Positions 17,174 to 37,682 of a stretch of 64,000 nucleotides of DNA are shown one piece after another. Position numbers and translations under genes: made by a program. Origin of the DNA: Streptomyces sp. NA04227 (GTDB taxonomy: Bacteria; Actinomycetota; Actinomycetes; Streptomycetales; Streptomycetaceae); NCBI RefSeq assembly GCF_013364195.1, contig NZ_CP054918.1, positions 2,717,001-2,781,000 of the forward strand. Direction: 5' to 3'. Each line of letters begins with the position of its first letter. Position 1 is the first letter of the stretch. The notes beneath the pieces are model-generated. The model was not told where the DNA came from, searched no databases, and was given only the letters and a program-made list of their open reading frames with translations.

Positions 17174-17191
17174 GCCCGGCCCACAACCAGC
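17174..17191 (-). repeat. Late 18-bp element, copy 1
   Basis: An exact copy of GCCCGGCCCACAACCAGC (plus strand), 30 bases before the TTG start of the fibre gene. Confidence 0.85.
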
Positions 17192-17232
17192 AGCGGCCAC
17201 CCAGTCTACGGCTGGCCCGCCGCCACCCGGCC

Positions 17233-17347
17233 GGTGTCCCACAACTGTCCGGGACGGTGTCCGGACACCTCCCGCCGGGCAGTCCGAGGCAGCGCCCTGA
17301 CCTGCCCGGACAGCGTCCGGACACCGCTACTGGCAGTGTCCGGTCAG
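17233..17347. repeat. Cluster of TGTCCGGACA-like units
   Basis: About seven imperfect copies of TGTCCGGACA lie in 115 bases, including one exact GTGTCCGGACAC and one CGTCCGGACACC. The cluster lies between the fibre gene leader and the stop of the glycine-rich gene. A related cluster is at 38215-38310, inside a coding region. Confidence 0.6.
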
Positions 17348-18066
17348 CCGTAGAGTTCGACGATCACGATGCCGTCCGCTCCGGATGTCCCAGGGGACGT
17401 CTCGCCATCTCGCGCGAACGCTCCTGCCGCGCCGCCGCCGTAGCCGCGCGGGGCGCCGCCGCCGCCGTCCGAGGAGCGCGGAAAACCACCGTGGCCGAGG
17501 TGTGATTCGCCACCGTTGCCGGACTGGCCCTGGAACCCGGTGAGGCGGATAGCGCCGCCGGAGCCGCCTCCGCCGGTAGCCCAGTCCCCTGTGCCGGCCA
17601 GTGGCCCGGCGATACCCGAGAAGCACGCCGAGCCCGTACCGGACGCCATGCCCGTCGTGCCACCGCCGCCACCGTTCGAGGTGACGGTGCCACCGAAGGC
17701 GCTGTTGCCGCCCGCTCCACCATCACTGTCCGTTCCGCCCGCGTTTCCACCCGCTCCGACGAGGACGGTCTCGATCGCGCCGAGCGCGGACACGTCGATC
17801 AGAGCCTCCGCGTATCCGCCGCCTGCACCGCCGTTGCGCACCACGAGTTCGCCCTGAGCCGCCCGAGCCCCGGCAGAACCACCGCCAGCCGCTTGCACGC
17901 GCACACGGATCCGAGCCAGCCAGGGGTAGTCAGCAGCCTGGAACTGGAAGGTCCCGGGCTCCTTGAAGTACAGGACTTGCCGCAGACCCATCGTGCCCGG
18001 GTTGAGGCACAGTTCGCCCTCATCGTTGACGTTGAAGTACGTGCTGCACACACAAACACTGGCCAT
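17344..18066 (-). CDS. Glycine-rich tail tip or fibre protein
   Basis: The 240-residue protein has a short Cys-containing N-terminus (MASVCVCSTYF), a beta-rich segment to residue 70, then about 150 residues dominated by glycine (GGAGGGYAEAL, NGGGGGTTGM and similar) and a closing IVIVELYG. Glycine-rich sandwiches of this kind form host-recognition adhesins in several siphovirus groups. The gene has its own GAGGTGA site, and the late element 30 bases upstream. Confidence 0.7.
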   Translation of the reverse strand: MASVCVCSTYFNVNDEGELCLNPGTMGLRQVLYFKEPGTFQFQAADYPWLARIRVRVQAAGGGSAGARAAQGELVVRNGGAGGGYAEALIDVSALGAIETVLVGAGGNAGGTDSDGGAGGNSAFGGTVTSNGGGGGTTGMASGTGSACFSGIAGPLAGTGDWATGGGGSGGAIRLTGFQGQSGNGGESHLGHGGFPRSSDGGGGAPRGYGGGAAGAFARDGETSPGTSGADGIVIVELYG

Positions 18067-18095
18067 CGGGACTCACCTCGTATGACGGAAGGTGA

Positions 18096-18113
18096 GCCCG
18101 GCCCACAACCAGC
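18096..18113 (-). repeat. Late 18-bp element, copy 2
   Basis: An exact copy of the element, 30 bases before the start of the glycine-rich gene. Confidence 0.85.
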
Positions 18114-18136
18114 GGCTACGGCGCCCAGGGTAGTCG

Positions 18137-18595: not shown

Positions 18596-19657
18596 TCACA
18601 CCCCTGCCATCATCGGCGTCGCGGTATCCGAACCTGTCGCCGCTACCTGCACTTGCACCTGTTCCGAGCCCGGCGTCGACTCGGTGCCGCCGTCCTCGGC
18701 CACCTTCAATCCCACAATTTTGAGGCGCTGAGAGATCGGACGGCACGTGACCTGAGTGGTGATGTCCAAGCACCAGCCGGGGACCAGAAGCGGCACCTCT
18801 ACGGCCGCGTCTGGACTGATCGTCACGTCCTGCGTGTCGATGAACACCGGAACCGGCAGCGAGGACCGCAGCCGCGACTTCGCGGCTTCCGTCGCGGCGG
18901 CGTCCGTCGTGATCGTCGTCTGCTCTACGTACCGCTCCAGCAGCCCGTAGTACGGGTCCGCGCCGCCTGCCTCCCCAAGAACGTCGCCCTCGTCGTCTCC
19001 AGCTACGACCCATCGCGTACCCAGCGCGGTACCGTCCTCGGCCACGATCAGGCCCTCCGGCAGGTCTGCGTCGCTGAGACGGCCGACGCTCACCGTGTGG
19101 TTCTCCGGCATGAGCACGATCCGCGAGCCGACCGCGGTGTAGTCGAGACCGGTCTCCGCGAGGTCCCGCAGATGATCGCCGGTCTGCCCCACGTTCCTCA
19201 GGTACTTCCTGCCGCCGCGCACACCAGACCGCCCAAGGATCTGGATCTCGTGACCCGGATCGTCCGGGGCGAACCCGTCGGTGATCAGCCACTCGGCGAT
19301 GTCCGTGAGGTCCGAGCCGCCGAAGGTGATGTCCTGGTGCGGCACCCGCCGGTCCAGCCACGCCAACAGGTCCCCGGCCCAAATCTCGATCTTCCCCAGC
19401 GACCATTCCACCTGGAGGACCGGACCAGACCAGACCGGCACCCCGTCGCGCCAGATGTTCAGGTAGGAGCGCCAGGCCCGGACCTCGCCGAGGCGTTCAC
19501 AGCAGTCCCCATCGGGCTGCACCACGACACGGGCCGTTGAGGTGTCGTCCAGGTTCCTGGTCCACTCCACCTCGGTGAGCGTGTGGACCGGGGTCAGCGT
19601 CGCCCCGCTCCGGTCAGTGATCAAGGCGGCATGAGTGCCGCACCCTGCGACGGCCAT
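18596..19657 (-). CDS. Minor tail protein, Gp37-like
   Basis: The 353-residue protein is read from the ATG giving MAVAGCGTHAALITDRSGA. The segment LTEVEWTRNLDDTSTARVVV near residue 30 and the later LNIWRDGVPVWSGPV and WAGDLLAWLDRR are the pattern of the siphovirus Gp37-like/tail-hub family of actinophages. It probably sits at the distal tail with the next protein upstream. The 18-bp late element is 29 bases before the start. Confidence 0.72.
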   Translation of the reverse strand: MAVAGCGTHAALITDRSGATLTPVHTLTEVEWTRNLDDTSTARVVVQPDGDCCERLGEVRAWRSYLNIWRDGVPVWSGPVLQVEWSLGKIEIWAGDLLAWLDRRVPHQDITFGGSDLTDIAEWLITDGFAPDDPGHEIQILGRSGVRGGRKYLRNVGQTGDHLRDLAETGLDYTAVGSRIVLMPENHTVSVGRLSDADLPEGLIVAEDGTALGTRWVVAGDDEGDVLGEAGGADPYYGLLERYVEQTTITTDAAATEAAKSRLRSSLPVPVFIDTQDVTISPDAAVEVPLLVPGWCLDITTQVTCRPISQRLKIVGLKVAEDGGTESTPGSEQVQVQVAATGSDTATPMMAGV

Positions 19658-19685: not shown

Positions 19686-19703
19686 GCCCGGCCCACAACC
19701 AGC
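19686..19703 (-). repeat. Late 18-bp element, copy 3
   Basis: An exact copy of the element, 29 bases before the Gp37-like gene start. Confidence 0.85.
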
Positions 19704-19727
19704 GACCCGCTCAGGGTACGACGGTGG

Positions 19728-21158: not shown

Positions 21159-21159
21159 A

Positions 21160-24100
21160 TCAGATCACTCCCGCCGCGAGGGCCAGCCTGGACGCGACGC
21201 GGTGCGCAGTCGCCCGCGCGTCGCCCGCCTCGTAGATGTGGAATACCGCGCCCGGGCCGCCAGGCAGCGGCGGCGGCTTCTCCTTGCTGCGGCTGCTGTC
21301 GCGGCCGTTCATCGCGCCAAGCATGTCCATCAGCCCCGACTTCTCCGCAAGATGCTGCGCGCGGCGGGGCTTCGTCAGCGGGATGATCACCTCGGGCCCG
21401 GCTTCGCCGACGAGCCCGACGACAGGGCTGTTGACGATGCCGCCCTCCGCGAAGGGCAGCACCTTCCGCACCGCGCCCGGCAAGCCGCCCTTGATCTTCG
21501 ACACGATCCGGCTCCCGATGTTGCCCAGCGAGGCAACGATCTTTCCAGGCAGCGACGAGAACAGGTCCACGATCGCCGAGATCAGTGAGGACACCGCCGA
21601 GCGGGCGGAGCCCGTCGCCGACCGGAACACCCCAGCAATCCGGTCCCCGAGGCCGGACAGCGCAGACACGATCCGGCCCGGCAGGGTGGAGAAGAACGTG
21701 GCGACCGACGAACCAAACGTGTGGGCAGCCGCGAGGCCGGAGGAGCCAGCAGACCGGAACAGAGAACTGACCCGTCCGGGCAGTGCGGCCAGCGCGGACC
21801 CGATCCGGCCGGGGAGCGCCGCGAAGAACGACACCGCCGACGAGACGAACAAGCTGATCGCCGACCGGGCAGCGGACACACCACGGGAGAAGGCGCCGCC
21901 GATCGCCGACCCAAGCGACGCGAGCGCGGCGACGATCTTCCCCGGTAGCACCGTGAACAGGGCGATGATCCCCGCCAGCGCGGTCAGCAGAGCGATACCC
22001 AGCAAGGCGACCGCGTTCACGAACAAGTCGACGAGCAGGCCGGGTAGCGCCACCAGCGCGGCGATGATGCGGCCGGGCAGCGCGGTGAAGAAGCCCACCA
22101 CTGCGGTGAAAGCGCTTGTGATGCCCGTGACGATCGTGGTGACCAGCGTCGTGAACGTGGTCGTGATCAGCGACCCCAGCGCCGACAAGCCGGACACGAT
22201 CAGTGTCGGCAGTTGCGTGATGAACGTGACGAGGTTCGACAGGCTGGAGATCAAGAACGTCAGGACGTTCACGACCCCGGTGATGATCGGAACGACGACG
22301 TTGATCGCGGCCCACGACAGGAACGCGGCAGCTACCTGGAGGACGGGGCCGAGGAGCCGCACAACGAGAACAACCAGCGGCGCCAGCGCCTCGACTAACT
22401 GCGCGACGGACGGCAGCAGCGGCACCAGCGCCAGCAGGATCGCGTTGAACGCCTCCACGATCGGTGGGAGCACCGGCAGCAGCGCGTTCGCCAACGCGGT
22501 GTACACCGGCACCAGCGCGCTCGCGATGCGAACCAGGACCCCGGCCAGGGTTTTAAGCACGGGGGCGAGGGACTGGAAGACCTGAGCGACGGCCTGCCCT
22601 GCACCGGCCGCGAGCGGCGCCATGGCCTGCACGAGCATCGAGAACGCCTGACCGATCTGCGGCAGGACCGGCAGCAGCGCCCCGACGAGCGCCTGAATGA
22701 TCGGCTGGAACAGGCTGACGAGGTTCTGGAGAACCGGCGCGAGGGCCTGCCCGATGACGGCGACGATCTGCCCGACGAGCGGCAGCAGAGGCGCGAGCGC
22801 GGACACCGCGCCGCCGATCGCGGCGCCGAGCGGCGCAAGGGAGGGGCCGATGATGCCGAGCCCTTGGGCAAGGGCCTGGCCGACGGCCGCCAGCGACGGC
22901 GCGATGGCCGCCAGGGCGGGCCCGAGCGCGTTGATCAGTCCGGTCAGGGCGGGCCCGACTGCGGTGAAGATGGGGGCCAGGGCAGGGGCGATGGCGCCGA
23001 GCTGCGTCACCAGCGCGCTGAGGATCGGGCCGAGCTGCGCCGCGATCGTGCCGATGGTGCGGAAGATGTTCCCGATGGCCTCTTGGCCCTGGGCGGAGTT
23101 GACGAACTCTCGGAAGCTCGCGGTGATCGTCTGAATGTTGTTCAGCAGTCCGCCGCCCGCGCCGTCGGCGGCTCGGAACACCCCCGCGAGGATGCTGCCG
23201 ACGTTCGAGGCGATGGCGCCGAGCTGCTGGAAGACGGCGACCGCGCCGCGCACCCAGGCTACGGCCTGCCCACCCTCGGCGATGCGGGTCAGGAACTCGC
23301 CGAACCGTACCGCGAGCCCGCCGACCGCCTGTCCGAGCTGCGTGCCGAATGCCTGCGAGACGGCGGCGGCGACGTCCAAGAAGCCCTGGGCGAGCGGCCG
23401 TGTTCCCTGGGCGAGGGCGTCGACGGCGGACTTCGTGCCCGCGATCACGGTCTGGATCTGGGAGAACGCGGCCTGCGTCGACAGGAACCGCAGGCCCGCC
23501 GCTGCGGCACGGCCGAATCCGGCGGCGACATCCTCCAGGCCCTTGCTGAGGGGCAGCAGGTTCTTGATCGCTCCGCTGACCTGCGACGCGAACTCCTCGA
23601 AGAACGCCTGCTGGACAGCCTGTTGAACCTCTTTGAGCTGCGGCGCCAGCTCCTTGACCGCCCCGACGGCTGTCCTCGCGGCCGGGGCCAGGCCCTCGAT
23701 CGCCTCCGCGTACTTCGCGGCGTCCCCGGAGAACGCCGCCACCAGCGCGTCGCCGACACCAACGACCGCCAGGCGCAGGGCGCCGAGCGCGATCTGCGCC
23801 CCGGCGATAGCCGCAGGGAACGCAGCGACGATCCCAGCCGCGGGGGCGAGCGCGGCGACCAGCGCCCCGATGGAGGAAGCCGCCCCGGCGGCGGCGATAC
23901 CGACGGCTCCGAAGGCGAGGAGGCCGCTCAGCGCGCCGCCGACCCGGCCGGCGATACCGCCGAGCCTGCCCAGCGACCGGGACAACCGGTCGGTGTCGAC
24001 GTTCGCGTTGACCGTGACGTCGGGCGGCCGGTGCTCCCGGATACGGGCGTCGAAGCCGTCCAGGTTCGGCACGACCCGTACGGGGATCGGGACGCCGGCC

Positions 24101-24414
24101 AGGACGGCGCGGACCCGCGCGACGAACCCCGTCAGGTCGGGGACGACGGGGACGTTGATGCTGCCCAGGCTGCGGAGCCCGGTCAGCAGCGCCGAGTCGA
24201 ACCGGCGCAGGTCCGGCTCTACTTGGACCGTGACGGCAGCGGCGTTCAGGCCGCGCTGGATGTTCCGCCGGATCTGGGCACCGATGTTGCGTGTGCCCCG
24301 GTCCAGGCTGTTCTGGATGCGGTTGGCGACCTGTCGCGAATCCGACGTCGTGTCGCCGTCGTCGAGGACGATTGTGATCCGTGCTGACCCGTAGTCGACG
24401 TCCTCGCCAGCCAC
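21160..24414 (-). CDS. Tail tape measure protein
   Basis: The 1,084-residue protein is the longest of the tail module and sets tail length. It is alanine, valine and leucine rich, with long hydrophobic helical repeats (ALAPLLPLVGQIVAVIGQAL type) and repeated SSLPGKIVASLG/ALPGRIGSALA units near the C-terminus. The end contains PLTKPRRAQHLAEKSG. I chose the GTG at 24414 (VAGEDVDYGSARITIVLDD) because the late element lies 29 bases before it; codons further upstream overlap that element. Confidence 0.9.
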   Translation of the reverse strand: MAGEDVDYGSARITIVLDDGDTTSDSRQVANRIQNSLDRGTRNIGAQIRRNIQRGLNAAAVTVQVEPDLRRFDSALLTGLRSLGSINVPVVPDLTGFVARVRAVLAGVPIPVRVVPNLDGFDARIREHRPPDVTVNANVDTDRLSRSLGRLGGIAGRVGGALSGLLAFGAVGIAAAGAASSIGALVAALAPAAGIVAAFPAAIAGAQIALGALRLAVVGVGDALVAAFSGDAAKYAEAIEGLAPAARTAVGAVKELAPQLKEVQQAVQQAFFEEFASQVSGAIKNLLPLSKGLEDVAAGFGRAAAAGLRFLSTQAAFSQIQTVIAGTKSAVDALAQGTRPLAQGFLDVAAAVSQAFGTQLGQAVGGLAVRFGEFLTRIAEGGQAVAWVRGAVAVFQQLGAIASNVGSILAGVFRAADGAGGGLLNNIQTITASFREFVNSAQGQEAIGNIFRTIGTIAAQLGPILSALVTQLGAIAPALAPIFTAVGPALTGLINALGPALAAIAPSLAAVGQALAQGLGIIGPSLAPLGAAIGGAVSALAPLLPLVGQIVAVIGQALAPVLQNLVSLFQPIIQALVGALLPVLPQIGQAFSMLVQAMAPLAAGAGQAVAQVFQSLAPVLKTLAGVLVRIASALVPVYTALANALLPVLPPIVEAFNAILLALVPLLPSVAQLVEALAPLVVLVVRLLGPVLQVAAAFLSWAAINVVVPIITGVVNVLTFLISSLSNLVTFITQLPTLIVSGLSALGSLITTTFTTLVTTIVTGITSAFTAVVGFFTALPGRIIAALVALPGLLVDLFVNAVALLGIALLTALAGIIALFTVLPGKIVAALASLGSAIGGAFSRGVSAARSAISLFVSSAVSFFAALPGRIGSALAALPGRVSSLFRSAGSSGLAAAHTFGSSVATFFSTLPGRIVSALSGLGDRIAGVFRSATGSARSAVSSLISAIVDLFSSLPGKIVASLGNIGSRIVSKIKGGLPGAVRKVLPFAEGGIVNSPVVGLVGEAGPEVIIPLTKPRRAQHLAEKSGLMDMLGAMNGRDSSRSKEKPPPLPGGPGAVFHIYEAGDARATAHRVASRLALAAGVI

Positions 24415-24442
24415 CGGGCAACCTCCGCAATTGCGTGTGGTT

Positions 24443-24460
24443 GCCCGGCCCAAAACCAGC
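24443..24460 (-). repeat. Late 18-bp element, copy 4 (one change)
   Basis: GCCCGGCCCAAAACCAGC, one base different from the consensus, lies 29 bases before the tape measure start. Confidence 0.8.
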
Positions 24461-24464
24461 GGCG

Positions 24465-24500
24465 ACGCCTCCGGTCCCCGTGCCCAGGGTCCGGAGGCGT
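24465..24500 (-). terminator. Hairpin just upstream of late element copy 4
   Basis: Perfect 10-bp arms, ACGCCTCCGG and CCGGAGGCGT, lie between the end of the tail chaperone frames (24517) and the late element. The order stop, hairpin, element, start suggests termination then re-initiation. Confidence 0.6.
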
Positions 24501-24516
24501 GACCCCAGGTTAGCCG

Positions 24517-25283
24517 CTACCTGCTACCGGTCATCCGAGCGTCCTCGGCCGCGAGTTGGGCGGCGAGAGCCTGCGCCCCAGCCCGGTCCAGCGCCGTGCC
24601 TGGCGGGCGCCCCCGGCGACGGCCTCGGCCGCGTTCGGACGCGGGCGGGGCGTAGAGCTTCGCCCGGTTTCGCTGCCGCTCGGCGTCGTCTTCCGCTGAG
24701 GCGTCCATCGCGGCCTCTGCGGCGTTGAGCATCGTCCTCAGCGTCCACGTGTGCGGGTCGACCCCTTGGAGGACGAGACCGCCCTCCCACGAGTCCCAGG
24801 AGGCGGCGACGCTGCCGCAGAGCCTCCAGACAGCCCAGTAGGGCGCTGGCCGCCCCCATACAGCTCGACAGCCCACTCCAGCAGCTCGACCAACACCCGG
24901 TCCGGGAGTCGCATCCCCGAGTCGCGCACCGTGGAACCCTTGCTTTCGGCGGCGTGCGCGTCGGCCTCTTCGCGGGTGCCGAACGACTCGACCGCCTTGC
25001 CGCCCTTGACGACCTCCCAGCGAGCGAACACCTGCGCCGACTCCGGGAGCATCAGCTTCGCGAGGAACACACGGAGGGACTGCACGATCGCCCGCAGCTT
25101 ATCCGGGGCGATTCCGGACAAGTTGTTGATGTCGACGCCGAGCTGCTTCTGCGTCTGCTGCAAGTCCTCGTACGCGTCGAGGAACTGGTCGCCCATCACC
25201 TCGGGCTGGAACAGCAGCTCCACGTCGCCGATCTCGGCGACGTGCGGCTCGGTGTTGATCGTGAACTGGCGGCGCTGGCTCAT
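24517..25283 (-). CDS. Tail assembly chaperone GT, -1 frameshift product
   Basis: A second frame, open from about 24876 to its stop at 24517, overlaps the end of the G frame and lies in the -1 register. Its protein-like part (WTLRTMLNAAEAAMDASAED, then DAERQRNRAKLYAPP) is what the T half of G/GT pairs looks like, and it has no good start of its own. The switch is likely at the run of five G bases near 24853-24857, where zero-frame TAT-GGG-GGC can slip back one base. G and GT chaperones assemble the tail around the tape measure protein encoded next. Confidence 0.72.
24738..25283 (-). CDS. Tail assembly chaperone G
   Basis: The 181-residue protein starts at the ATG at 25283 (MSQRRQFTINTEPHVAEIGD). 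It contains a helical middle (QFLDAYEDLQQTQKQLG) and ends with a short SSSKGSTRTRGR tail after the frameshift point. Immediate position before the tape measure gene and the overlapping -1 frame identify it. The late element lies 32 bases upstream. On its 5' side transcription diverges from the plus-strand cassette. Confidence 0.82.
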   Translation of the reverse strand: MSQRRQFTINTEPHVAEIGDVELLFQPEVMGDQFLDAYEDLQQTQKQLGVDINNLSGIAPDKLRAIVQSLRVFLAKLMLPESAQVFARWEVVKGGKAVESFGTREEADAHAAESKGSTVRDSGMRLPDRVLVELLEWAVELYGGGQRPTGLSGGSAAASPPPGTRGRAVSSSKGSTRTRGR

Positions 25284-25314: not shown

Positions 25315-25332
25315 GCCCGGCCCACAACCAGC
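25315..25332 (-). repeat. Late 18-bp element, copy 5
   Basis: An exact copy, 32 bases before the chaperone G start. Here no minus-strand gene lies immediately upstream, so a local promoter is needed. Confidence 0.85.
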
Positions 25333-25420
25333 GGCGCGGACCGAAGGGTACGCGGTCGGCAAGAACCTGCCTGGGCGTCAGCTACACGCCCTACCGTGAA
25401 CGAGCAGGGGAGGAACCGGT

Positions 25421-26143
25421 ATGGGGAAAGCTCAGCAGGCATGGGGCGGGCTGAATGCTCGTCAGCGCATCTACATGGAGGTCATGTACGGCGAGGACCA
25501 AGGACTGGAGGAGGAGCAGCGGCAGCTCGGCACTCAAGGGCGGTTCACCAAGGCCCCCGCGCAGGTGTGGCGGCGGATCTTCCTCTCCGGGCGGGATGCG
25601 CCCACCCCGAGAGCGTTGCGGGCGCGCGGGTTGTGGGAGTCGGGCGCCGGGTCAACCCTGGCCGCGCTCGCCGACCGGGGGCTGATCGAGCTGGGCACCA
25701 CCGACACCGGCGCCCCGTACGCGCTTCTCACCCGGGCCGGCCGCGCCGCCACGCGTGCCGGGCTGGGTATCGCTCCGATGCCCAGCAAAGCTCCGTGGGA
25801 GCTGTCCGAGTGGCTCTGGCGCGAGATGGCCAAGGTCGCCAGGGCCGGGGAGGACGGCCTGCCGCCCGAGGAGCTGTTCGGGTCCGCGCACCTGTACCTC
25901 GTCACCGGATACGACAGACACCGGGGGAACCGGCCCTACTTGGACGTCCACGAGGAGAGCGTCACATACACGCCCCGGGACTTTAGCGGCAACCTTCGCG
26001 CCGGCCACCAGGCGAGCCGCACCGTGCGCCGCTACCGGTTTACCGAAGCGGGGCGGGCGCACTACGTCGACCACGTCGAGGACTACCGCAAGTTCTACCC
26101 CGAGATCGAGGCACCCGACCTGGCCGTGGTCCCCCGCAGCTAG
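25421..26143 (+). CDS. Plus-strand cassette gene, unknown, possible winged helix
   Basis: The 240-residue protein starts at an ATG after GGGGAGGAACCGGT. Residues about 10-45 (LNARQRIYMEVMYGEDQGLEEEQRQ) are helical. The stretch STLAALADRGLIELG and the later RRYRFTEAGRAHY look like two winged-helix C-terminal strands (the -ALTxxGRxxY- pattern), so it may bind DNA. It is oriented against the late genes and begins the cargo cassette. No family name can be given. Confidence 0.65.
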   Translation: MGKAQQAWGGLNARQRIYMEVMYGEDQGLEEEQRQLGTQGRFTKAPAQVWRRIFLSGRDAPTPRALRARGLWESGAGSTLAALADRGLIELGTTDTGAPYALLTRAGRAATRAGLGIAPMPSKAPWELSEWLWREMAKVARAGEDGLPPEELFGSAHLYLVTGYDRHRGNRPYLDVHEESVTYTPRDFSGNLRAGHQASRTVRRYRFTEAGRAHYVDHVEDYRKFYPEIEAPDLAVVPRS

Positions 26144-26237
26144 CGGCCGTGGTGAGTTTCGCGAATCGGCCACGGCGACCGCGCTCCGCAAGGAAACTTC
26201 CCTGGTCAAGAACTTGTCGGTAGATCAGGAGATTGCG

Positions 26238-27083
26238 GTGCATTCAGTCCTGCGAGTCGTCACGTTCAACACGCTCTTCGGTGGTCATTCCGACTCTGGT
26301 CTTGGGCTAGCCGAACGGTGGGACGGTCAAGTCGAGTTCCTGCGGTCACTGCGGGCGGACGTGCTGGCTCTCCAGGAGTGCAACTTCTGGGACCTGCTGG
26401 GCCGAAGGCGCCTGCATCGGATGGTGACCGCGCTGGGCATGGCTCAGGGCTTCCTCGCAGAGGCCAACGTGACGACGGCCGGACATCGCTTTCACTCCGC
26501 GATCCTGCTCAGCGAACGGGTTGCGGTAGACGCCGAGGACGCGGACCGTACGCGTTACCACCACGTCATGGGTTGGGCGAACCTCACGGTGCCCGGCATG
26601 GAGGGCCTGGTCGAGCTACGTAATCTCCACCTGGACCCCTTCGACCCACGCAACCGAGCGCGCGAGGTAGCCCCGTTGGGGATCTTGGCCGCTCCTGGGC
26701 GACGGTCCTTGGTCGTCGGCGACTTCAACACCGTCGGGCTCGGTTTCGCGGAGCCTGACTGGTCAACGCTCCCGCCGCATCTCCGCAACGGGCACCTGCA
26801 CTTGCCTGGTCAGGCAGAGAGCTCCGATCGCGATGCGCTTGAGCTGTTGGCCCGCGCCGGCTTCGTGGACACTTCGAGCCGCTTCGGGCAGGAAACGGCG
26901 GCGACGGCCGCGTTCGGCGATGGTGACGTGCCTCGGCGCCAGGACCTCATCCTGGCGAGCCCCGCTATGGCCGCGGGTCTCGTGCGCTACCAGGTGCACA
27001 TGGAACCGGTAGATATGGGGCTGTCGGACCACGCTGCCGTGAGCGCGGACTTCGACCTCGGTGTGCTGGCGCAGGGGGCGTGA
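26238..27083 (+). CDS. Second EEP family protein (cargo cassette)
   Basis: The 281-residue protein starts at the GTG at 26238, with AGGAG seven bases upstream; the longer frame upstream overlaps the previous gene and is not protein-like. EEP motifs are complete: RVVTFNTLFGG, DVLALQECNFW (metal-binding Glu), LVVGDFNTVG and GLSDHAAVSADF. It is therefore likely to be an active metal-dependent nuclease or phosphatase. It is distinct in sequence from the EEP gene at 7765. In a cassette with a 2H phosphoesterase, a role in cleaving a nucleotide signal or RNA is possible. Confidence 0.85.
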   Translation: MHSVLRVVTFNTLFGGHSDSGLGLAERWDGQVEFLRSLRADVLALQECNFWDLLGRRRLHRMVTALGMAQGFLAEANVTTAGHRFHSAILLSERVAVDAEDADRTRYHHVMGWANLTVPGMEGLVELRNLHLDPFDPRNRAREVAPLGILAAPGRRSLVVGDFNTVGLGFAEPDWSTLPPHLRNGHLHLPGQAESSDRDALELLARAGFVDTSSRFGQETAATAAFGDGDVPRRQDLILASPAMAAGLVRYQVHMEPVDMGLSDHAAVSADFDLGVLAQGA

Positions 27084-27617: not shown

Positions 27618-27796
27618 GGCCGTCAACCTATGGTCTCGAAGGCTCCTTTGTCTCCCCGCATCCCCCTGTGGCCCGGGTAGTTGGGGTAGGGCGCCAAGGC
27701 GCCCTACCTGAGGGCCCCGGCTCTGGCATCTTGCCTCTCGGCGTGGATCGGGCATGACAAGCTCGTACGAAGCGACACCGATGATGAGGGGGACAT

Positions 27797-28279: not shown

Positions 28280-28295
28280 CTCGGGGGAGCTTGAG

Positions 28296-28934
28296 GTGCA
28301 GCCGTTCAAGTTCCAGCATGGGACGGACGCTTGGAAGGCCGACAGCGTCCTGCATGTCTACGGGATCGTCGATCTCGTCGACCCTCGCCACGAGCCTTTG
28401 ATCACCCTCTTGACCAAGGCGACCGAGGTCCTGCTCGACGCGGGTTTCCCGGTATGCCCGGTGGAGCCGCAGTGGCTCCACATCACGCTCGATCAACTGT
28501 CAGGCCGCCCCGCATCGGCCGTGCCCCAAGAGGAACGAGAGGCCTTGGTCGAAGCCCTGAACCGGCGCCTGTCCGACGTCGCGCCGCTCGACGTCGTCGT
28601 GGGGTCCATGCTGGCGTACCACTCCGGCGTGATCGGGGACTTGCATCCCGATGAGGAGATCGCTGCTCTGCACACCGCAGTGCGCAGCACTATCCGGAGC
28701 GTCTGCGGGGAAGCCGCCACCCGATACCTCTGGGGAGTGCAACACCTGACGGCGGCCTACGCCTACGACCACGCCGACTCCGACGCGGCTCAGCGTCTGC
28801 TGCGACGCGTCCGGCCGAGCCACGCTCACCTGCACATCTCCGCTGTCCACCTGGTGGACGTCACCGCGACGACCACCGAGCAGTCGAAAACCATTACCTG
28901 GGAACACCTAGCTGAGATCCCGCTCGGTGGATAA
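28296..28934 (+). CDS. 2H phosphoesterase (2'-5' RNA ligase family)
   Basis: The 212-residue protein has the two H-x-T motifs of 2H enzymes: His62-Ile-Thr64 in WLHITLDQL and His150-Leu-Thr152 in VQHLTAAYAY. A further HLHIS at about 178-182 matches the closing strand. 2H enzymes open cyclic phosphates or cleave 2',5' and 3',5' linkages in RNA and oligonucleotides; some phage members destroy cyclic nucleotide alarm signals. The start GTG follows GGGGGAGCTTGAG. It is last in the cassette, converging on the late neck gene. Confidence 0.82.
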   Translation: MQPFKFQHGTDAWKADSVLHVYGIVDLVDPRHEPLITLLTKATEVLLDAGFPVCPVEPQWLHITLDQLSGRPASAVPQEEREALVEALNRRLSDVAPLDVVVGSMLAYHSGVIGDLHPDEEIAALHTAVRSTIRSVCGEAATRYLWGVQHLTAAYAYDHADSDAAQRLLRRVRPSHAHLHISAVHLVDVTATTTEQSKTITWEHLAEIPLGG

Positions 28935-31475: not shown

Positions 31476-32177
31476 TCAGGACGGAGAGGCGTCGCACAGG
31501 ACCGGCGTGTACTCGCACACCGGCTCAGGCGGGGCCACGGTCGTTACGAATGTCCGCCGGTGGCACGCCCCTCCGAGTGGCGTGAGCAGCGGCCCGGGCG
31601 TGCCGGCCGCGTCGATCGGCATGATGTCGTACGGGCCAGTTCCCCAGCCGCCCCCGGCCCGCGTGGCACCGTTCAGGACGAGGGACACGGCCTCGTTGCC
31701 AACCTCCAGGTCTCCGAGCTGACCGTTGGTTACCCACGGCATCAGGAAGTAGATCCAGGCGCCGTCACCGGCCGCGTCCGGATCGCACACATCCTCGCCG
31801 AGGACTTCGGCCCACAGCTCCAGCGCGAAGCCCGAGTTGCACTGGACCGAGCAGTCGTCGTAGCCGATCGGCTTCCCGTCGTAGCCGTACACCACGGGGT
31901 TGCCCGTCGTGATCTCCACGAACTCGGGGCTGACGGAGAAGAAGTTCAGCTCGATGTCGTAGCCGTTGAACGTGGGGCAGCCGCGCTTGAATCCGCACTG
32001 GCGGCCGTTCGCCGCGGTGTACGCGACGTCTTCGCCTTCCTCGACGTTCGCGTTCATCGAGAGGGTGGCGAAGCAGTCGAAGGTGAAGCCGTTGTCTTCG
32101 CCGCAGACGGGTCGACCGCATCGGTCCACGCGGGTCACACGGATCACGTCCGCGTTAGCGATCAAGGGGCAGGGCAT
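31476..32177 (-). CDS. Major tail protein candidate
   Basis: The 233-residue protein is read from the ATG at 32177 (MPCPLIANADVIRVTRVDRC). Its beta-rich sequence with TFNGYDIELNFFSVSPEFVEITTG resembles tail tube proteins of actinophages. It has a private late element 25 bases upstream, as do the capsid and tape measure genes, which supports high expression. Twelve cysteines are present. A decoration protein is the main alternative, because it comes before the connector genes. Confidence 0.65.
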   Translation of the reverse strand: MPCPLIANADVIRVTRVDRCGRPVCGEDNGFTFDCFATLSMNANVEEGEDVAYTAANGRQCGFKRGCPTFNGYDIELNFFSVSPEFVEITTGNPVVYGYDGKPIGYDDCSVQCNSGFALELWAEVLGEDVCDPDAAGDGAWIYFLMPWVTNGQLGDLEVGNEAVSLVLNGATRAGGGWGTGPYDIMPIDAAGTPGPLLTPLGGACHRRTFVTTVAPPEPVCEYTPVLCDASPS

Positions 32178-32201: not shown

Positions 32202-32219
32202 GCCCGGCCCACAACCAGC
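32202..32219 (-). repeat. Late 18-bp element, copy 6
   Basis: An exact copy, 25 bases before the major tail protein candidate. Confidence 0.85.
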
Positions 32220-32325
32220 GGCTACACCAGAAGTGTATCCGCGCGCACTCCGCATCGGACGACGCCGGAAGGACGGGGTTACCGACCGGTTCGCCTCGGA
32301 CCGGGCAGCGTTGTGGTCGAGGACG

Positions 32326-34374
32326 TCAACGGGCGCAGGTGGTGCTCAAAATGTCGCGCACGGCGTCCATCCAGACAGCCATTTCTGTACGGGACTCCGC
32401 GGCAAGGGCCCTGCTCCGGGCGCGCGCTGCGGCGCTAGCCTGCGCGCGCTGGCTGCCGTCCGGATATAGCTCGCGGATTGCGTCCGCCCACAGGGCCGTG
32501 TCGGCACGGTCGATGAACCGCGCCGCGTCCCCGAGGGCTTCACGGAGCCCGGGGGTGGGGTGGGCGATGACGGGGATTCCGGACGCAAGGGCCTCCACTG
32601 CGGCCATGCCGAAACTCTCGTAGATGCTCGGCACGAGCAGGACGCGGGTGCGGGCCCAGACGTCGCGCCGCATGTCGGACGTCTGCGGGATGATCCGCGT
32701 GTTTCTCCGTACGGGGCGGAGGACTTGCGGACCGTGGGCGCCGGTCACTCCCAGAAACGGCAGATGAGGCAGCGCCCGGGCGGCGGCACGCCAGGTGTCC
32801 ACGCCCTTGTCCCTGTTCAGGTTGACGAGCGCCACATGATCACCGGCCCGGTGCGTGCGGTGCTCTGCGGGCACAACAGGGGGGTGTACGACGAGAGAGC
32901 GCACGCGGTCGATCTGCGGGTACCGGGCAGTGAGGGACGCCTGCACCCAATGCGTGTTGTAGACGCACAAGTCAGGGCCAGCCAGCAGGGGTTCAGCGAC
33001 CAGGTCGAAGTCGCTGTGGGCGAGGAGCACTGACCGGGAGCCGATGTCGCGGGCCAGGTGGACCGCGCGGGTCGCGTAGTCGTGGTGGGAGACGACCAGG
33101 TGCGGGCGAGCCGAGCGGATGAACGCTTCAGCGGTCTGCGCACCGACGCTGGCGTACGGCACCCCATCCGTGTGCCACGAGGGGGGCGCCTCGGGCATCG
33201 CCGAGCACAGCACCCGTACGGGCACACCGGCGTCGTGGAGTGTCCGCATCATCGTGTGCAGCATCGTCTCCGATCCGGCCCGCCGGTACGGCACGCCGAA
33301 GTGCACCCACGCCACAACGTCCGGCTGTCTGGGCGTCGTACTCGCGGGTGCCGGACGTGCGGGTGCCGCCGTGGAGTGCCGGACCGCTGTTGTGGACCGC
33401 TTCGCGGGCTGCTGGAGGAGACGGCGGCAGGCCCGTTCGAACGCGGCCAGGCGGGCGGCTGGGTCGAGGTCGTTGGTGTGTTCGCGGGCGCGCGCTGCGG
33501 CGGCGGTGTAGGCGTCGGGCGCGTCGAGACGCTGGATCTCCTCCGCCCAGCGGCTGGTGTCGTCGCGGTCGACGTAGGTGGCCGCGGTGCCGAGCGCTTC
33601 GCGGATACCGGGGAGGGGCGCAGCGATGACCGGGATGCCCGACAGCATTGCTTCGACGCCGACTCGGCCCCATGACTCTGTCTGCGACGGCATCAGCAGC
33701 AGCCGCGTTCGGGCGTAGAGCGAGCGGGGGTCCGTACGGTCGATGACGTTGACGTTGTCCGGGAGCAGTACTCCCTCGTGCCAGGGGGTGCGCACGGCGA
33801 GGAACTGCCGGTCGGGCATCCGCTCGGCGACCGCAGCGACGACGTCGGCACCCTTCGCCGCGGTTGTGCCGTTGACCGTGATGAGGCGGCCGGGCTGGGT
33901 GCGGTACCGGGCCGGAGTGATCGGAGGCGGCAGTACGAGCGGCCGGACACCGATGTCGGGGTAGTGGTCGCGGCAGGCTTGTGAGGGGAACCAGGCCGTC
34001 GACGGCCTGCCGAGGTCGCGGTCGTCCGACAGGCCGTGCACCATCAGCAGGTGCGGTACGCCCGGCGTTTGGGCGACGATCCGTGCGCCCCTTCGGTCCC
34101 CGTGGTGGGAGATAAGCACCTGCGGGGCTGATACTCGTGCGGCATGCCGCCACCGCCGCAGAGGCCATACCCGTACTCCGGCCTCGGTGTAAGGCTCCCA
34201 GTTGTCCTTCGACGTGGTCACCACGTCCACGATGTGACCGGCGGCGGCGAGTCCGAGTGCGTACTCGCGGGTGGTGATGAACGCGCCTGCGGCCGGTAGC
34301 GGGCTCCAGGAGGGCAGGAGTACCAGCACCCGCATGCGGTGGGTTCGGCGCCGCAGAGTCTGACGGTCGTTCAT
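32326..34374 (-). CDS. Tandem glycosyltransferase, two GT4-like units
   Basis: The 682-residue protein contains two complete GT-B halves in a row. Unit one (about 15-330) ends with LLLMPSQTESWGRVGVEAMLSG; unit two (about 355-670) ends with LLVPSIYESFGMAAVEALASG. Each E-S-x7-E signature is typical of GT4 retaining transferases that use NDP-sugars. A proline- and alanine-rich linker joins them. Its place between head and tail genes suggests glycosylation of virion or cell-surface targets. The upstream hairpin at 34402 separates it from the head genes. A GTG three bases before the ATG is an alternative start. Confidence 0.82.
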   Translation of the reverse strand: MNDRQTLRRRTHRMRVLVLLPSWSPLPAAGAFITTREYALGLAAAGHIVDVVTTSKDNWEPYTEAGVRVWPLRRWRHAARVSAPQVLISHHGDRRGARIVAQTPGVPHLLMVHGLSDDRDLGRPSTAWFPSQACRDHYPDIGVRPLVLPPPITPARYRTQPGRLITVNGTTAAKGADVVAAVAERMPDRQFLAVRTPWHEGVLLPDNVNVIDRTDPRSLYARTRLLLMPSQTESWGRVGVEAMLSGIPVIAAPLPGIREALGTAATYVDRDDTSRWAEEIQRLDAPDAYTAAAARAREHTNDLDPAARLAAFERACRRLLQQPAKRSTTAVRHSTAAPARPAPASTTPRQPDVVAWVHFGVPYRRAGSETMLHTMMRTLHDAGVPVRVLCSAMPEAPPSWHTDGVPYASVGAQTAEAFIRSARPHLVVSHHDYATRAVHLARDIGSRSVLLAHSDFDLVAEPLLAGPDLCVYNTHWVQASLTARYPQIDRVRSLVVHPPVVPAEHRTHRAGDHVALVNLNRDKGVDTWRAAARALPHLPFLGVTGAHGPQVLRPVRRNTRIIPQTSDMRRDVWARTRVLLVPSIYESFGMAAVEALASGIPVIAHPTPGLREALGDAARFIDRADTALWADAIRELYPDGSQRAQASAAARARSRALAAESRTEMAVWMDAVRDILSTTCAR

Positions 34375-35054: not shown

Positions 35055-35918
35055 TCAGCGGATCTGGACGTTGACCGCGCACACGGTGCACGTCGTACCG
35101 ACGACGAAGGTGCGCTCGATCAGCACGCGGCGGTCGTTCGTGCGGATGTTCACGGACGGGCCGGGCCGGTCGGGGGTAGTCACGGACGGGCCGCGGCGGA
35201 TGACGAGCGGGCCGGTGATGTAGAGCCAAGCCGTACCTGGGTCGGCGGGGGTTCCGCCGGGCCCGGTGTTCTCCGCCGAGTAACCGGCGCCGATCACCAC
35301 GCAGTTGCCAGCCAGCGTGCTCAGTGCGCCCGTCGCCGGGTTCTCAAGCGCGAGGTCGCAACAGCCGAGCAAGGCGGCGGCCGAGGCCGGGATGTGGATG
35401 ACGCCGACACCGCCGTACGACTCCGCGAGGCAGCCCTCCAGCGCGGCGACGCCCTGAGAGACGGTCAGCGGCCCGCCGTCGGGTGTGAGGTCGATGGCGT
35501 AGCGGGTCAGCTTCCTCCGCCAGAACGCGGCCTCAAGCGCCTTCTGTTCACCGAGGGCAAGAGTCGCTTCGGCGTGTTCGCGGGCCTCTTCGTACGACCA
35601 GCCGATCGTCGAGCACTCGGCACCCGCGTACAGCGTGATCGGCTCGGCGTACTCGGTCTCGGGGCGGCAGAACTGCTTGGAGCCCGGAGACTCGTCCCCC
35701 GGCGATTCATCGCCTGGTGACTCGTCTCCTGGCGACTCGTCCAGGCACGGGTCCGTCCAGGACCGGACGGGGCAGCAGCCGAGCGCCAGCCACTCGACCC
35801 CGAGCAGCTCGTGCTCGTCAGCGACGTCACGCACGTCCGTACACGGGGTGGTGAGGATGCCGTGTGGCAAGGGCGTCCCGTCGATCGCTTCGACCTGCTT
35901 CCGCAGTCCTGCGGCCAC
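35055..35918 (-). CDS. Second head structural protein with ESPGD repeats
   Basis: The 287-residue protein follows the capsid gene. Residues about 60-80 carry four tandem copies of the five-residue unit ESPGD, encoded by 15-bp DNA repeats. After it comes a helical region (SYEEAREHAEATLALGEQK) and a beta-rich C-terminal part (VGVIHIPASAAALLGCCDL, then TAWLYITGPLVIRRG). The latter part resembles phage coat or decoration proteins. The repeat may be an exposed spacer. Confidence 0.65.
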   Translation of the reverse strand: MAAGLRKQVEAIDGTPLPHGILTTPCTDVRDVADEHELLGVEWLALGCCPVRSWTDPCLDESPGDESPGDESPGDESPGSKQFCRPETEYAEPITLYAGAECSTIGWSYEEAREHAEATLALGEQKALEAAFWRRKLTRYAIDLTPDGGPLTVSQGVAALEGCLAESYGGVGVIHIPASAAALLGCCDLALENPATGALSTLAGNCVVIGAGYSAENTGPGGTPADPGTAWLYITGPLVIRRGPSVTTPDRPGPSVNIRTNDRRVLIERTFVVGTTCTVCAVNVQIR

Positions 35919-35942
35919 GTGCTCAGCTCCTTCGGTATGGGG

Positions 35943-35978
35943 CGGTGGGCCGGCGCCACCCGAAGCACCGGCCCACCG
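35943..35978 (-). terminator. Hairpin after the major capsid gene
   Basis: Perfect 11-bp arms, CGGTGGGCCGG and CCGGCCCACCG, lie 19 bases after the capsid stop. It may stabilise or partly end the capsid transcript. Confidence 0.65.
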
Positions 35979-35996
35979 CGGTCTGGGTGCTGGACG

Positions 35997-37631
35997 TCAG
36001 GAGGCGTCGCAGACCATGAGCGACTGTGCTCCGGTCTCACCGGTCGGGCAGACGGGCACGGTGACGGCGCGGGTGTCCACTGAGCGATCCACGAGGGCGA
36101 CGCATTCCTCTGCGAAAAGTGCGGTGTAGTCGTTCGTGGAGAACTTCGTGCTGTCGTGGACGACGCCGAGGTTGACCTCTTCGCCACGGCCGATCTGGAG
36201 CTGACCGGAGGGGTACATGAGGAACGTGACCTCGTCCGGCCATTCCACAGCGGCGGCCGGCCCGCCGATGTCGGCGGGGACGGCCGGGGTGAGGCCGCGG
36301 GCCCACTGCACCATCACGCCGAGCGGCGTGAACATGTCCTGCACCATCTGCGGATCGACCTGATCGGTCGTCACGCCGTTGCGGCGTGCGAGGTCGGCCA
36401 GGAAGAGGTTCCGGGACCACCACGGGAACACGACCTCGATGGCCGTGCTCTCGCACAGGCTGTGACGCTCGATCATGTCGGCGGCCTGGAGGGCGACCGC
36501 TGCGTACACGGCGGACAGGGCGCCCATCGTCGGCGGGAGGGCGACGGGCGTTGCGCCGGCGAGCGCCTGCTGGAACAGGGCCTGCCTGATCCTGATCTCG
36601 TGCGCGACCATGGTGTTCCTGAGGTACCAGGCGACCAGCTCCGGGAAGTGGCGCTGCGTCAGGATGCCCGCCTCAAGGCACACGCCGACGGCGTCACATC
36701 GGACCTCGACCGGGTCCGGGCAAGGGATCTTGAAGCAGGGCTTCGTCGCGCCGGAGATGTCGTCGGCTTCAGTGTGGATCCACGTCATCGAGGCGACGTC
36801 GAGGCTCGGGGTCTTGTAGTAGCGCAGTCCACCACGGGCGAGCTGGATCTCGGGGGCGTCCCACAGCATGTCAGGGCACGCCACATCGAGCAGGTCGTAA
36901 ACCGTCTCGGAGGGCGCGCACCAGCCGCCGGACGCGATGAGGTCCTGCTGCGGCAGTCGCCGCTGGTTCGCCGCCTGGATGGCCACGGTGGTGCCCTCCG
37001 GCGCGCTGCTGGAGTCCGTGACGATCAAGTCGTGGGTGTACGGGTGCCGGTAGGAGATGACCTGCCCGACGCCTCCACCGGCGGTCTTGAGCGCGTTGGC
37101 GCGAGAGATGATCCCGGCGGTGATGTCGCCGAAGTCGAGCGCGGCGCCCGGAGTGTAGCCGGGCACGTCGACCGCCGCGGTGATGCTGGTGGTCGGCGCG
37201 GGGGGTTCGGGCAGTACGCGCGGCTGGCGGCGCCGCACACCGGACAGGTTCAGGGCCGGCCGCTGCGCGATGGCGGCGCTGACCGTCTTCACCTGCTCCG
37301 GCTCGGGCTCCGGCTCGGCCGCCGCGGTGGCGGTGTCGTCGGCGGGCTCCTCGTCGGCGGGCTCCTCGGGCTGAGCATCGCCGCCCCTCACCTGCGCGGC
37401 GAGCGAGTCGATCTCCGCAGCGGCCTTCTCGGCCGCCTTTCGGCGTGCGGCCTGCTCGGTGCGGATACCGTCGACCGTCGTGGCGAGGGACCGAAGGGAC
37501 TCAAGGTCCTTGGTCGTGACGCTGGTGGACTGCGACTTGGCGTCGAACGCTGCCACGGCGCCCTCAAGCGCTTCGTTCAGCTCGTCGTCCGACAGTGCGG
37601 TGACGTCTTCGGGGATCTCGAACTCAGCCAT
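35997..37631 (-). CDS. Major capsid protein, HK97-like with delta domain
   Basis: The 544-residue protein starts at the ATG at 37631. Residues 1-115 form an acidic helical scaffold region (DDELNEALEGAVAAFDAKSQ, then EEPADEEPADD) that is normally removed by the head protease. The shell domain follows, with GGWCAPSETVYDLLDVAC and a long helical ELVAWYLRNTMVAHEIRIRQ spine-like segment. Gene order protease-capsid supports the call. The late element lies 34 bases upstream and a hairpin just beyond. Confidence 0.87.
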   Translation of the reverse strand: MAEFEIPEDVTALSDDELNEALEGAVAAFDAKSQSTSVTTKDLESLRSLATTVDGIRTEQAARRKAAEKAAAEIDSLAAQVRGGDAQPEEPADEEPADDTATAAAEPEPEPEQVKTVSAAIAQRPALNLSGVRRRQPRVLPEPPAPTTSITAAVDVPGYTPGAALDFGDITAGIISRANALKTAGGGVGQVISYRHPYTHDLIVTDSSSAPEGTTVAIQAANQRRLPQQDLIASGGWCAPSETVYDLLDVACPDMLWDAPEIQLARGGLRYYKTPSLDVASMTWIHTEADDISGATKPCFKIPCPDPVEVRCDAVGVCLEAGILTQRHFPELVAWYLRNTMVAHEIRIRQALFQQALAGATPVALPPTMGALSAVYAAVALQAADMIERHSLCESTAIEVVFPWWSRNLFLADLARRNGVTTDQVDPQMVQDMFTPLGVMVQWARGLTPAVPADIGGPAAAVEWPDEVTFLMYPSGQLQIGRGEEVNLGVVHDSTKFSTNDYTALFAEECVALVDRSVDTRAVTVPVCPTGETGAQSLMVCDAS

Positions 37632-37664
37632 GAAAGCCGGGCCTCCGGTGTCGCTTCGTGGAGT

Positions 37665-37682
37665 GCCCGGCCCAGAACCAGC
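37665..37682 (-). repeat. Late 18-bp element, copy 7 (one change)
   Basis: GCCCGGCCCAGAACCAGC, one base different, lies 34 bases before the capsid start. Confidence 0.8.

Follow-up and report, generated by a model that had tools for sequence, protein, structure and literature searches.

A covarying hairpin before late phage genes of Streptomyces sp. NA04227 as a candidate translational control element in actinobacteriophages

Introduction

Why does one small, putative RNA element precede seven particle-building genes of a temperate phage in Streptomyces sp. NA04227? The first-pass annotation of this locus, a stretch of 64,000 nucleotides (the window), described an 18-bp repeat before late structural genes, explained it either by a late promoter or by translational control through an RNA leader, and likened its place to the start-associated sequences (SAS) of mycobacteriophages. 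In the available text of the sources, start-associated repeats of actinobacteriophages were described in 2011 and have lacked a mechanism since (PMC3203893), and they are still called "ill-defined" (PMC11373665). Here we compare the repeat within the window, across the host genome and among related phage leaders, and propose a mechanism by which it may control the late genes.

Results

As the late genes lie on the minus strand, the reverse complement of the repeat, GCTGGTTNTGGGCCGGGC, was used as the working sequence. The window scan gave seven matches at up to three mismatches (100 dinucleotide shuffles: mean 0.34, largest 2), at exactly the seven coordinates first reported, including the two one-base variants. 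The conserved unit, hereafter the box, is wider than first described, with three further conserved bases (GCY) at its 5' end, and covers 21 nt, GCYGCUGGYYNNGGGCCGGGC. All copies are on the minus strand. Copy 1 (GCTGCTGGTTGTGGGCCGGGC; 17174..17194) ends 29 nt before a TTG at 17144, chosen by inspection as the start of the gene ending at 16146, to which no function is assigned (the gene caller gave 17102). Copy 2 (18096..18116) ends 29 nt before a tail fibre assembly-like gene (17344-18066), copy 3 (19686..19706) 28 nt before a minor tail gene (18596-19657), and copy 4 (24443..24463) 28 nt before the tape measure gene (21160-24414), which has a GTG start. Copies 5 (25315..25335), 6 (32202..32222) and 7 (37665..37685) end 31, 24 and 33 nt before the genes for a tail assembly chaperone-like protein (24738-25283), the major tail protein (31476-32177) and the major capsid protein (35997-37631), respectively. 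The single orientation and the steady place before late gene starts are as first noted, and the distance is 24-33 nt. So is the confinement to the late structural module. A matrix scan found no degenerate further box in the window (seven sites at 31.5-34.1, all else at or below 4). Across the 7.9-Mb host genome, matches at no more than one mismatch were the seven window copies only; the 2 at two mismatches and 46 at three were taken as background, and the total of 55 compares with 120 for a reversed-pattern control. Many copies elsewhere in the host, which would have spoken against the first proposal, were not found.

The box is present in many actinobacteriophage contigs, including those of other Streptomyces phages and a Gordonia phage. 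A GTDB scan gave at least 119 stretches with the box pattern; among the matches listed, many were lone matches in unrelated bacteria, taken as chance, and the multi-copy stretches belonged to Streptomyces, a Micromonospora and a Nonomuraea. No shared box was seen at nine examined starts of Microbacterium phage Squash. Tandem copies behind another box, near-identical leaders, sites with too short a flank and leaders outside the stated start range were dropped before the counts, and an SD-start combination was missing from 13 of 164 unique leaders. A site was called validated if it had an upstream hexamer, an SD and a start; pairing was not a criterion. The possibility of a variable gap between CTGGTT and GGGCC was also considered and rejected: 329 occurrences had a gap of 2, 80 a gap of 7 (the GGGCCGGGCC overlap) and 14 another gap, the last being below the 39 of a reversed-order control.

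A -10-like hexamer, TANNCT, is found upstream of all seven window copies on the same strand. It lies 6-10 nt away in five of them: TAGACT in copy 1 (17203..17208; 8 nt), TACCCT in copies 2 (18127..18132; 10 nt), 3 (19713..19718; 6 nt) and 5 (25345..25350; 9 nt), and TACACT in copy 6 (32232..32237; 9 nt). In the other two, TAACCT of copy 4 (24507..24512) and TAAACT of copy 7 (37729..37734), the distance is 43 nt and a GC-rich minus-strand hairpin occupies the interval (24464..24506, -31.1 kcal/mol, z -4.1; and 37686..37728, for which the same stretch in another locus, L039, gave -35.0 kcal/mol, z -6.0). Many leaders of tape measure and capsid genes have structure in this interval (27 leaders with a mean z of -2.0; in 4 of them the interval contains a variant box). 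Overall, 185 of 237 leaders have TANNCT in the last 20 nt ahead of the box, compared with 2 of 520 control starts, which were searched in one 20-nt window (-60 to -41) and are not exactly position-matched. Sites with a purine at box position 9 had the hexamer in none of 22 cases, and sites with TT, CT, CC, CG or TC do have it. Since the hexamer stands upstream of every copy, the box should be part of a transcribed leader. The distance from hexamer to box varies among leaders (about 6-14 nt or about 27-48 nt), and the box ends 20-40 nt before the start codon in 141 of 151. No recognisable -35 element was found upstream of TANNCT, and no -10 motif within the box.

This arrangement bears on two further explanations. 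The box could be a cis-acting antiterminator RNA of the HK022 put type, whose hairpin modifies RNA polymerase so that terminators of the late operon are read through; its predicted position at the transcript start, its bulged stem and the adjacent second hairpin that appears when the box fold is enforced in copy 1 would suit such a role. However, the box recurs before many genes and not just once in each operon, and its distance to the start is kept while the distance to the hexamer shifts by at least 30 nt, which suits translation better, and we regard antitermination as distinctly unlikely. Alternatively, the hairpins may protect the 5' end of the mRNA or flag a cleavage site whose processing makes the ribosome-binding site accessible. 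A structured leader near the predicted 5' end, and the further structure that many leaders of tape measure and capsid genes have between the hexamer and the box, would be expected of such a stability or processing element, but the conserved sequence and bulges and the steady start-codon distance would be left unexplained, making this role quite improbable.

As RNA, the box can form a hairpin with pairs 1-21, 2-20 and 3-19, a bulged G4, pair 5-18, a bulged U6 and pairs 7-17 to 10-14, closed by a three-base loop, NNG; both bulges are conserved. Among 76 distinct validated 21-mers, 96.4% of cells were paired, and four pairs had two-sided changes, in 31 cells. None of 500 shuffles reached these values for percentage, cells, pair types or score, and 5 did so for the number of pairs; slid registers reached at most 59.4% paired. 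The two-sided compensatory changes fall in pairs 1-21, 2-20 and 3-19, and at two sites only in pair 5-18 (C-G at 307 of 309 sites, A-T at 1 and G-C at 1). Pairs 9-15 and 10-14 have compatible one-sided changes. That 7-17 and 8-16 hardly vary is in part a selection effect, since most stem letters were fixed in the patterns used to fetch the loci. All 28 validated sites lacking both C2 and G20 have T-A (21) or A-T (7) instead, compared with a standard pair in 35 of 59 unvalidated sites that likewise lack both. A19 is accompanied by T3 every time (15 of 15 in one count, 16 of 16 in another), and all six shifted-register variants have a G that restores the stem. Counting against the hairpin, pair 10-14 is G-G at 16 of 309 sites.

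The box therefore has the covariation-supported structure expected of a structured cis-regulatory RNA; folding energy does not favour it. Pairs 2-20, 3-19 and 7-17 occur together in the predicted fold of 5 of 271 leaders, with a mean probability of 0.04 for 2-20, and in the energy model another register of the isolated box folds at least as well. The covarying hairpin is the predicted fold in none of the seven window copies. Because the folding energies do not favour the hairpin, a bound factor is likely.

The same results bear on the two original explanations. A late promoter, DNA operator or activator site would account for an asymmetric conserved block on one strand before late genes and for an RNA hairpin that folding energy does not favour. 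It does not suit compensatory changes with many G-U pairs, copies that differ in pair type within one contig, or a box without an internal -10 motif and with a separate -10-like hexamer at variable distance, where a sigma-type late promoter would keep a fixed place relative to the transcription start and have its own -10. The box is thus probably not the promoter, and a role as a DNA site of any of these kinds is very improbable. The RNA-leader half of the earlier proposal is supported by the G-U-containing covariation, the kept start distance and the separate hexamer upstream. The matched letter changes in Streptomyces phages and a Gordonia phage point to a shared RNA control element.

In some leaders, including those of the tape measure and tail tube genes, the 3' strand of the box hairpin and the bases that follow can instead pair with the SD/start region, and this second helix and the box hairpin are mutually exclusive. 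In copy 2 (18067..18100, minus strand), box bases 17-21 and the following bases pair with the stretch holding the SD. Copy 4 has a 10-bp helix (CCGGGCAACC / GGTTGCCCGG; 24414..24448, minus strand) that would sequester the SD and start, with covariation across 34 orthologous leaders. The tape measure leaders were 90.9% paired in this helix and their covariation score was reached in 0 of 500 shuffles; counting against this, 9 of the 11 two-sided cells are in one pair. Of 217 leaders, 103 had a helix of at least 6 bp, where the 40 swaps gave no more than 70, and leader folds had a z of -1.84 (88 starts) compared with -0.02 for 260 controls. By gene family, such helices exceeded the random-partner level in tape measure (23/24), tail tube (32/44), capsid (10/17), GCGTH minor tail (10/20) and LALGGVE (5/11) leaders, and were no higher than that level in CGGGQCNC (12/46), ACVC (7/28) and chaperone (4/27) leaders. 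Potential masking of the ribosome-binding site is clear in leaders of the tape measure and tail tube genes; of the other six families, three have a weaker signal and three are at chance level.

Counting against the second helix, the 10 nt after the box alone gave no long-helix excess over swaps (6 bp: 32 observed, swap maximum 36), and in Gordonia phage Clown the SD, read by inspection, can fall in the loop or after the helix. In the span from -24 to +3, which leaves out the box 3' end, folding energy was no stronger than in controls (p 0.56), although SD pairing was higher (0.51 against 0.43); the energy difference emerges from -28 on. A rule that the last four box letters always pair with the 3' arm was dropped as a weak trend only: GTCC occurs in 3 of 10 GGAC leaders and GCTC in 3 of 24 GAGC leaders, each against 14 of 196 GGGC leaders. 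Pairing of the box with the 16S rRNA locus was likewise set aside, being no better than for shuffled boxes; its score of 24.0 matched the lowest value among 30 shuffles.

Discussion

We propose, at a probability of roughly one half, that the box is a translational switch in which a predicted factor reads the bulged hairpin and frees the ribosome-binding site. Each copy would fold as a structured part of the 5' leader of an mRNA for a late gene, and transcription would start, under the TANNCT hexamer, at or slightly before the box, or about 40 nt before it in two copies. In the closed fold, the 3' strand of the box would pair with the SD/start region and limit translation. Late in infection, a phage- or host-coded factor may recognise the bulged hairpin and hold the box fold, so that the ribosome-binding site is freed and the capsid, tail tube, tape measure and other tail proteins are produced together. 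That the box is transcribed, and that translation is controlled through it, we infer from sequence comparison. The transcription start, the factor itself and the choice of activation over repression are likewise what we infer. A comparison of the genes shared by TurkishDelight and TP1604 gave no clear candidate for the trans-factor.

The choice of activation has to be weighed against its opposite. The same hairpin may be the operator of a translational repressor, at which a phage structural or regulatory protein blocks initiation for autogenous or early repression. A conserved bulged hairpin near the start codon, tandem boxes that would suit cooperative binding, and the absence of a second helix from some leaders, among them those of chaperone genes, are all consistent with repression. 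However, the window boxes end 24-33 nt before the start codon and do not cover it, one operator across seven late genes has no obvious feedback logic, and unmasking is a better match for the alternative helix found in several families; we consider the repressor operator unlikely.

Returning to the switch, we tentatively suggest that the boxes represent a widespread new family of bistable leader RNAs in actinobacteriophages, in which a predicted factor unmasks the ribosome-binding sites of late mRNAs and a translational regulon is laid atop individual promoters. In Rfam 15 there was no family match for the box; one tRNA alone reaches the gathering threshold in the window, and between 16500 and 38200 the only hit was Chloroflexi-1 (E 0.5; 24.1 bits against a cut-off of 80), on the opposite strand of copy 7. 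No earlier report of the element was found in the open literature searched, including the available text of PMC5511901, PMC11536984 and PMC11302927, and it is apparently undescribed so far. The box lends itself to testing: its structure can be probed, its bulges are defined, a promoter is predicted and the reporter design is simple. Should it be read by an RNA-binding factor, the virion genes would form a regulon common to Streptomyces phages and to at least some phages of Gordonia, and the box might serve as a switchable leader for actinomycete expression work.

Several known systems resemble parts of this model. The coat-protein operators of RNA phages are small hairpins with a conserved bulge near the start codon, as the box is; they cover the start region and repress one gene, whereas the box lies farther upstream and before many genes of a DNA phage. 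The put antiterminator RNA of HK022 has two stems in series, the first of them bulged and close to the promoter; unlike the box, it is not known to be tied to start codons or to be repeated before each late gene. In phage Mu, as described in the available text of PMC6483171, the initiation region of the mom leader is masked by structure and opened by the RNA-binding protein Com, in a fashion similar to that proposed here; in Mu this concerns one gene, with another sequence and another hairpin. The SAS of cluster K mycobacteriophages is, as far as the available text of PMC3203893, PMC11373665 and PMC12699233 goes, a 13-bp sequence (GGGATAGGAGCCC) that usually stands 3-9 bp from the start codon, in most cases outside the structural module; the ESAS adds inverted repeats and a putative promoter, and the role of both is given as unknown. 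The likeness first drawn to these sequences is sound for place and one-strand repetition, both being short asymmetric repeats before many gene starts in mostly one orientation, and fails in all else, as the box differs in sequence, forms a covarying 21-nt hairpin, ends 24-33 nt from the start and has its seven copies inside the late structural module.

Results

The prophage whose late module lies in the window is a relative of Streptomyces phage TurkishDelight (genus Dolmabahcevirus, 93.6 kb). Protein matches to this phage extend from approximately position 11,224 to the right end of the window and about 35 kb past it, and the prophage measures roughly 87 kb, if it is one single element. Read in the direction of the late genes, which are on the minus strand, the element is GCTGGTTNTGGGCCGGGC. 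The first-pass annotation had placed seven copies here, all within the phage late region, and both observations held: seven matches were found at up to three mismatches (mean 0.34 and maximum 2 in 100 shuffles), and in the 7.89-Mb host genome, scanned at the same tolerance, these seven were the only matches with at most one mismatch, none lying outside the late module. The 48 further host matches with two or three mismatches are background: the reversed pattern gave 120 matches, as compared with a total of 55 for the element. Scored with a matrix of relatives, the seven copies reach 31.5–34.1, and no other site in the window exceeds 4; the copies are far beyond chance.

According to our own gene caller and inspection, the 21-nt element (the box) precedes minus-strand genes starting at 17144 (box 17174; without PHROG match), 18066 (18096; tail fibre assembly-like), 19657 (19686; minor tail), 24414 (24443; tape measure), 25283 (25315; tail assembly chaperone-like), 32177 (32202; major tail protein) and 37631 (37665; major capsid). 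A mostly plus-strand cassette at 25421–28934, with an endonuclease/exonuclease/phosphatase-family gene, a 2'-5' RNA ligase-like gene and genes without known function, breaks the minus-strand late genes directly upstream of the chaperone box. A gene for a 682-aa glycosyltransferase (32326–34374) within the late structural module is present in TurkishDelight too, and upstream of it a hairpin-forming stretch contains CTGGTTTCCGAGGGCCGGGC, which is box-like with three extra bases. The predicted prophage also holds a minus-strand tRNA gene (50807–50878; Rfam), accompanied by an integrase-family match below Pfam's cut-off (51126–51587). To its left, positions 2589–6830 encode a protein of 1413 aa that combines trypsin-like and nSTAND1 NTPase domains and may resemble defence-type STAND proteins.

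The element had been proposed to be either a late promoter or an RNA leader. In 237 leaders (the stretches before late-gene starts), the -10-like hexamer TANNNT occurs 195 times with its first base between -20 and -12 relative to the box, against a low background at other positions; its fifth base is C in 94% of 200 aligned hexamers. TANNCT lies within 20 nt upstream of the box in 185/237 leaders, as compared with 14, 9, 1 and 1 for the consecutive 20-nt windows farther up and 2/520 in control starts (one 20-nt window). Counted by gene family, TANNNT is close to the box in 197 of the 237 leaders; in 27 others TANNCT is found only at a greater distance, and 13 lack both. Those 27 are mostly tape measure and capsid leaders; the sequence from hexamer to box has a folding tendency in this group (mean z -2.0) and includes a variant box in four of them. 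TANNCT precedes all seven window copies, at 6–10 nt in five and at 43 nt in two, which have a strong hairpin between. From box end to start codon the distance is 20–40 nt in 141/151 leaders with SD and start; in the window, the supposedly fixed distance of 25–34 nt is kept within a range of 24–33 nt. The upstream hexamer and the steady distance to the start therefore suggest that the box is transcribed leader, tied to the start codon and not to the promoter. Sequence evidence thus speaks against the box as promoter and, through the separate hexamer and a covarying hairpin, for the RNA leader. No -35 motif was seen upstream of the hexamers in the leaders, and such hexamers without evident -35 precede late genes both with and without a box (e.g. 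18127–18132; relatives' loci L280–L283, L291). WhiB-family regulators are annotated in TurkishDelight and four Woodruffvirus records; at a guess, these might serve the hexamer promoters.

Pairing was assessed in 309 sites (76 distinct 21-mers) for which the sole validation was a hexamer upstream plus an SD and start codon downstream. The outer pairs vary most: 1-21 (GC 292, GU 6, AU 3), 2-20 (CG 270, UA 20, UG 11, AU 8) and 3-19 (CG 204, UG 83, UA 15). Pair 5-18 (CG 307, AU 1, GC 1) is supported by two sites; 7-17 (GC 309), 8-16 (GC 308, GU 1), 9-15 (UG 235, CG 71) and 10-14 (UG 275, CG 18, GG 16) follow. Among the distinct 21-mers 96.4% of cells are paired, most stem letters being fixed by the patterns that fetched the loci, and two-sided changes fall at four pairs in 31 cells, which exceed the independent events as the phages are related. 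None of 500 shuffles reached the two-sided cell count, percentage paired, pair types or covariation score, and five reached the number of pairs with two-sided changes; slid registers gave at most 59.4% paired. Sites picked only for missing C2 and G20 had standard pairs in 28/28 validated and 35/59 unvalidated cases. A purine at position 9 coincided with an upstream hexamer in 0/22 sites, and in all six variants starting CCGA or CTGA the G immediately before them restores the stem, leaving a bulge of two bases. Conserved bases are G4, U6 and, in the loop, G13. On this comparative evidence the box is an RNA hairpin; RNA is favoured over a DNA operator because pair types vary inside single loci (L125, L516, L022) and G-U pairs occur. 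Energy models do not favour this bulged fold: pairs 2-20, 3-19 and 7-17 appear in 5/271 predicted leader folds, and isolated boxes (four tried) prefer pairs 5-19 through 10-14 by 0.1 to 5.9 kcal/mol, while pair 5-19 is broken in 16/279 validated sites. A bound factor stabilising the bulged fold would reconcile covariation with energies.

The 3' strand of the box has a second potential partner. Mean folding energy is -16.5 for real leaders and -14.4 when 5' flanks are combined with 3' flanks from other phages; the best of 50 such swaps reached -15.0. Helices of at least 6 bp between the box 3' end plus next bases and the pre-start region occur in 103/217 leaders, a count that was no higher than 70 in any of 40 swaps; with the box 3' end left out, these leaders showed no excess over the swaps. 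In 34 tape measure leaders 90.9% of cells in a ten-pair helix are paired; of its 11 two-sided cells nine fall in one pair, and its covariation score was reached by 0/500 shuffles. This helix takes box bases 16-21, which the box hairpin also requires, and the two folds are therefore mutually exclusive. In the window the second fold uses 4–6 of these bases in six of the seven copies (copy 1 pairs only with first codons included); in five copies its energy is below that of the box fold when the latter is enforced, and for copy 5 the two are about equal. Of 271 leaders, 125 have the second fold more than 1 kcal/mol below the box fold and 97 have it above, and in 49 the two lie no more than 1 kcal/mol apart. 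Helices of at least 6 bp exceed the random-partner level in tape measure (23/24), tail tube (32/44), capsid (10/17) and minor tail leaders (10/20 and 5/11). Three families are at or below that level (12/46, 7/28 and, for the chaperone, 4/27), the strongest finding against a model in which masking is uniform.

In IMG/VR contigs the 18-mer (any base at the eighth place) occurs in at least 120 stretches. It is present in 15/199 genomes of the host genus, nine of them with at least two copies, and in 3/396 genomes phylum-wide, the window's own included. Host-genus copies cluster on one strand of one contig, except in two genomes (three lone copies in one; one copy on a second contig in the other). 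BLAST of the exact 21-mer (G at position 11) against 50,697 named phage records returned TurkishDelight only (two accessions), whose nine copies all lie in the late region, four forming two tandem pairs. Diverged boxes were found in relatives with homologous capsid and tail genes. CTGGCGNTAGGCCG[G/A]G precedes the capsid and tail tube genes of four Woodruffvirus phages, one of which, Mischief19, has it only at the capsid gene; further variants precede the tape measure gene of phiSAJS1 and the tail tube gene of Mischief19. In Gordonia phage Clown, GCYGCTGGCCTCGGGCCGGGC is found ahead of the genes for capsid, tail tube, tape measure and endolysin. One Clown leader matched 58 phage records (54 Gordonia; 46 with at least 80% query coverage), which include many duplicate accessions and some weak intragenic matches, Clown alone being inspected. 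Nine inspected starts of Microbacterium phage Squash had no such repeat. Eleven tandem cases are spaced at 23–68 nt (L116, L118, L126, L248, L009, L029, L042, L047, L050, L057); the first copy is often not followed by a hairpin, and behind the last copy a hairpin lies at the ribosome-binding site.

Discussion

We propose that the box is most likely a leader RNA switch that frees the ribosome-binding site on factor binding. A late promoter would produce mRNA with a short leader, in which the ribosome-binding site of several gene families would be masked without the factor. A putative factor recognising the bulged hairpin would keep the box fold and free the site, and tandem boxes (11 cases) could take more than one molecule of it. 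Repression, antitermination and mRNA protection are possible alternative roles of the box.

For the switch, the closest parallel in mechanism is phage Mu, whose protein Com is reported to open the mom leader in such a way (PMC6483171); this is an analogy, not membership. Within the window, one tRNA was the only match at gathering threshold in Rfam 15, and the late region, searched with relaxed settings, had a single Chloroflexi-1 match, far under its cut-off. We found no report of the box in the open-access papers searched. The nearest described repeats are the start-associated sequences of cluster K mycobacteriophages (PMC3203893, PMC11373665, PMC12699233), which have another sequence and structure than the box, lie at another distance and precede another set of genes.
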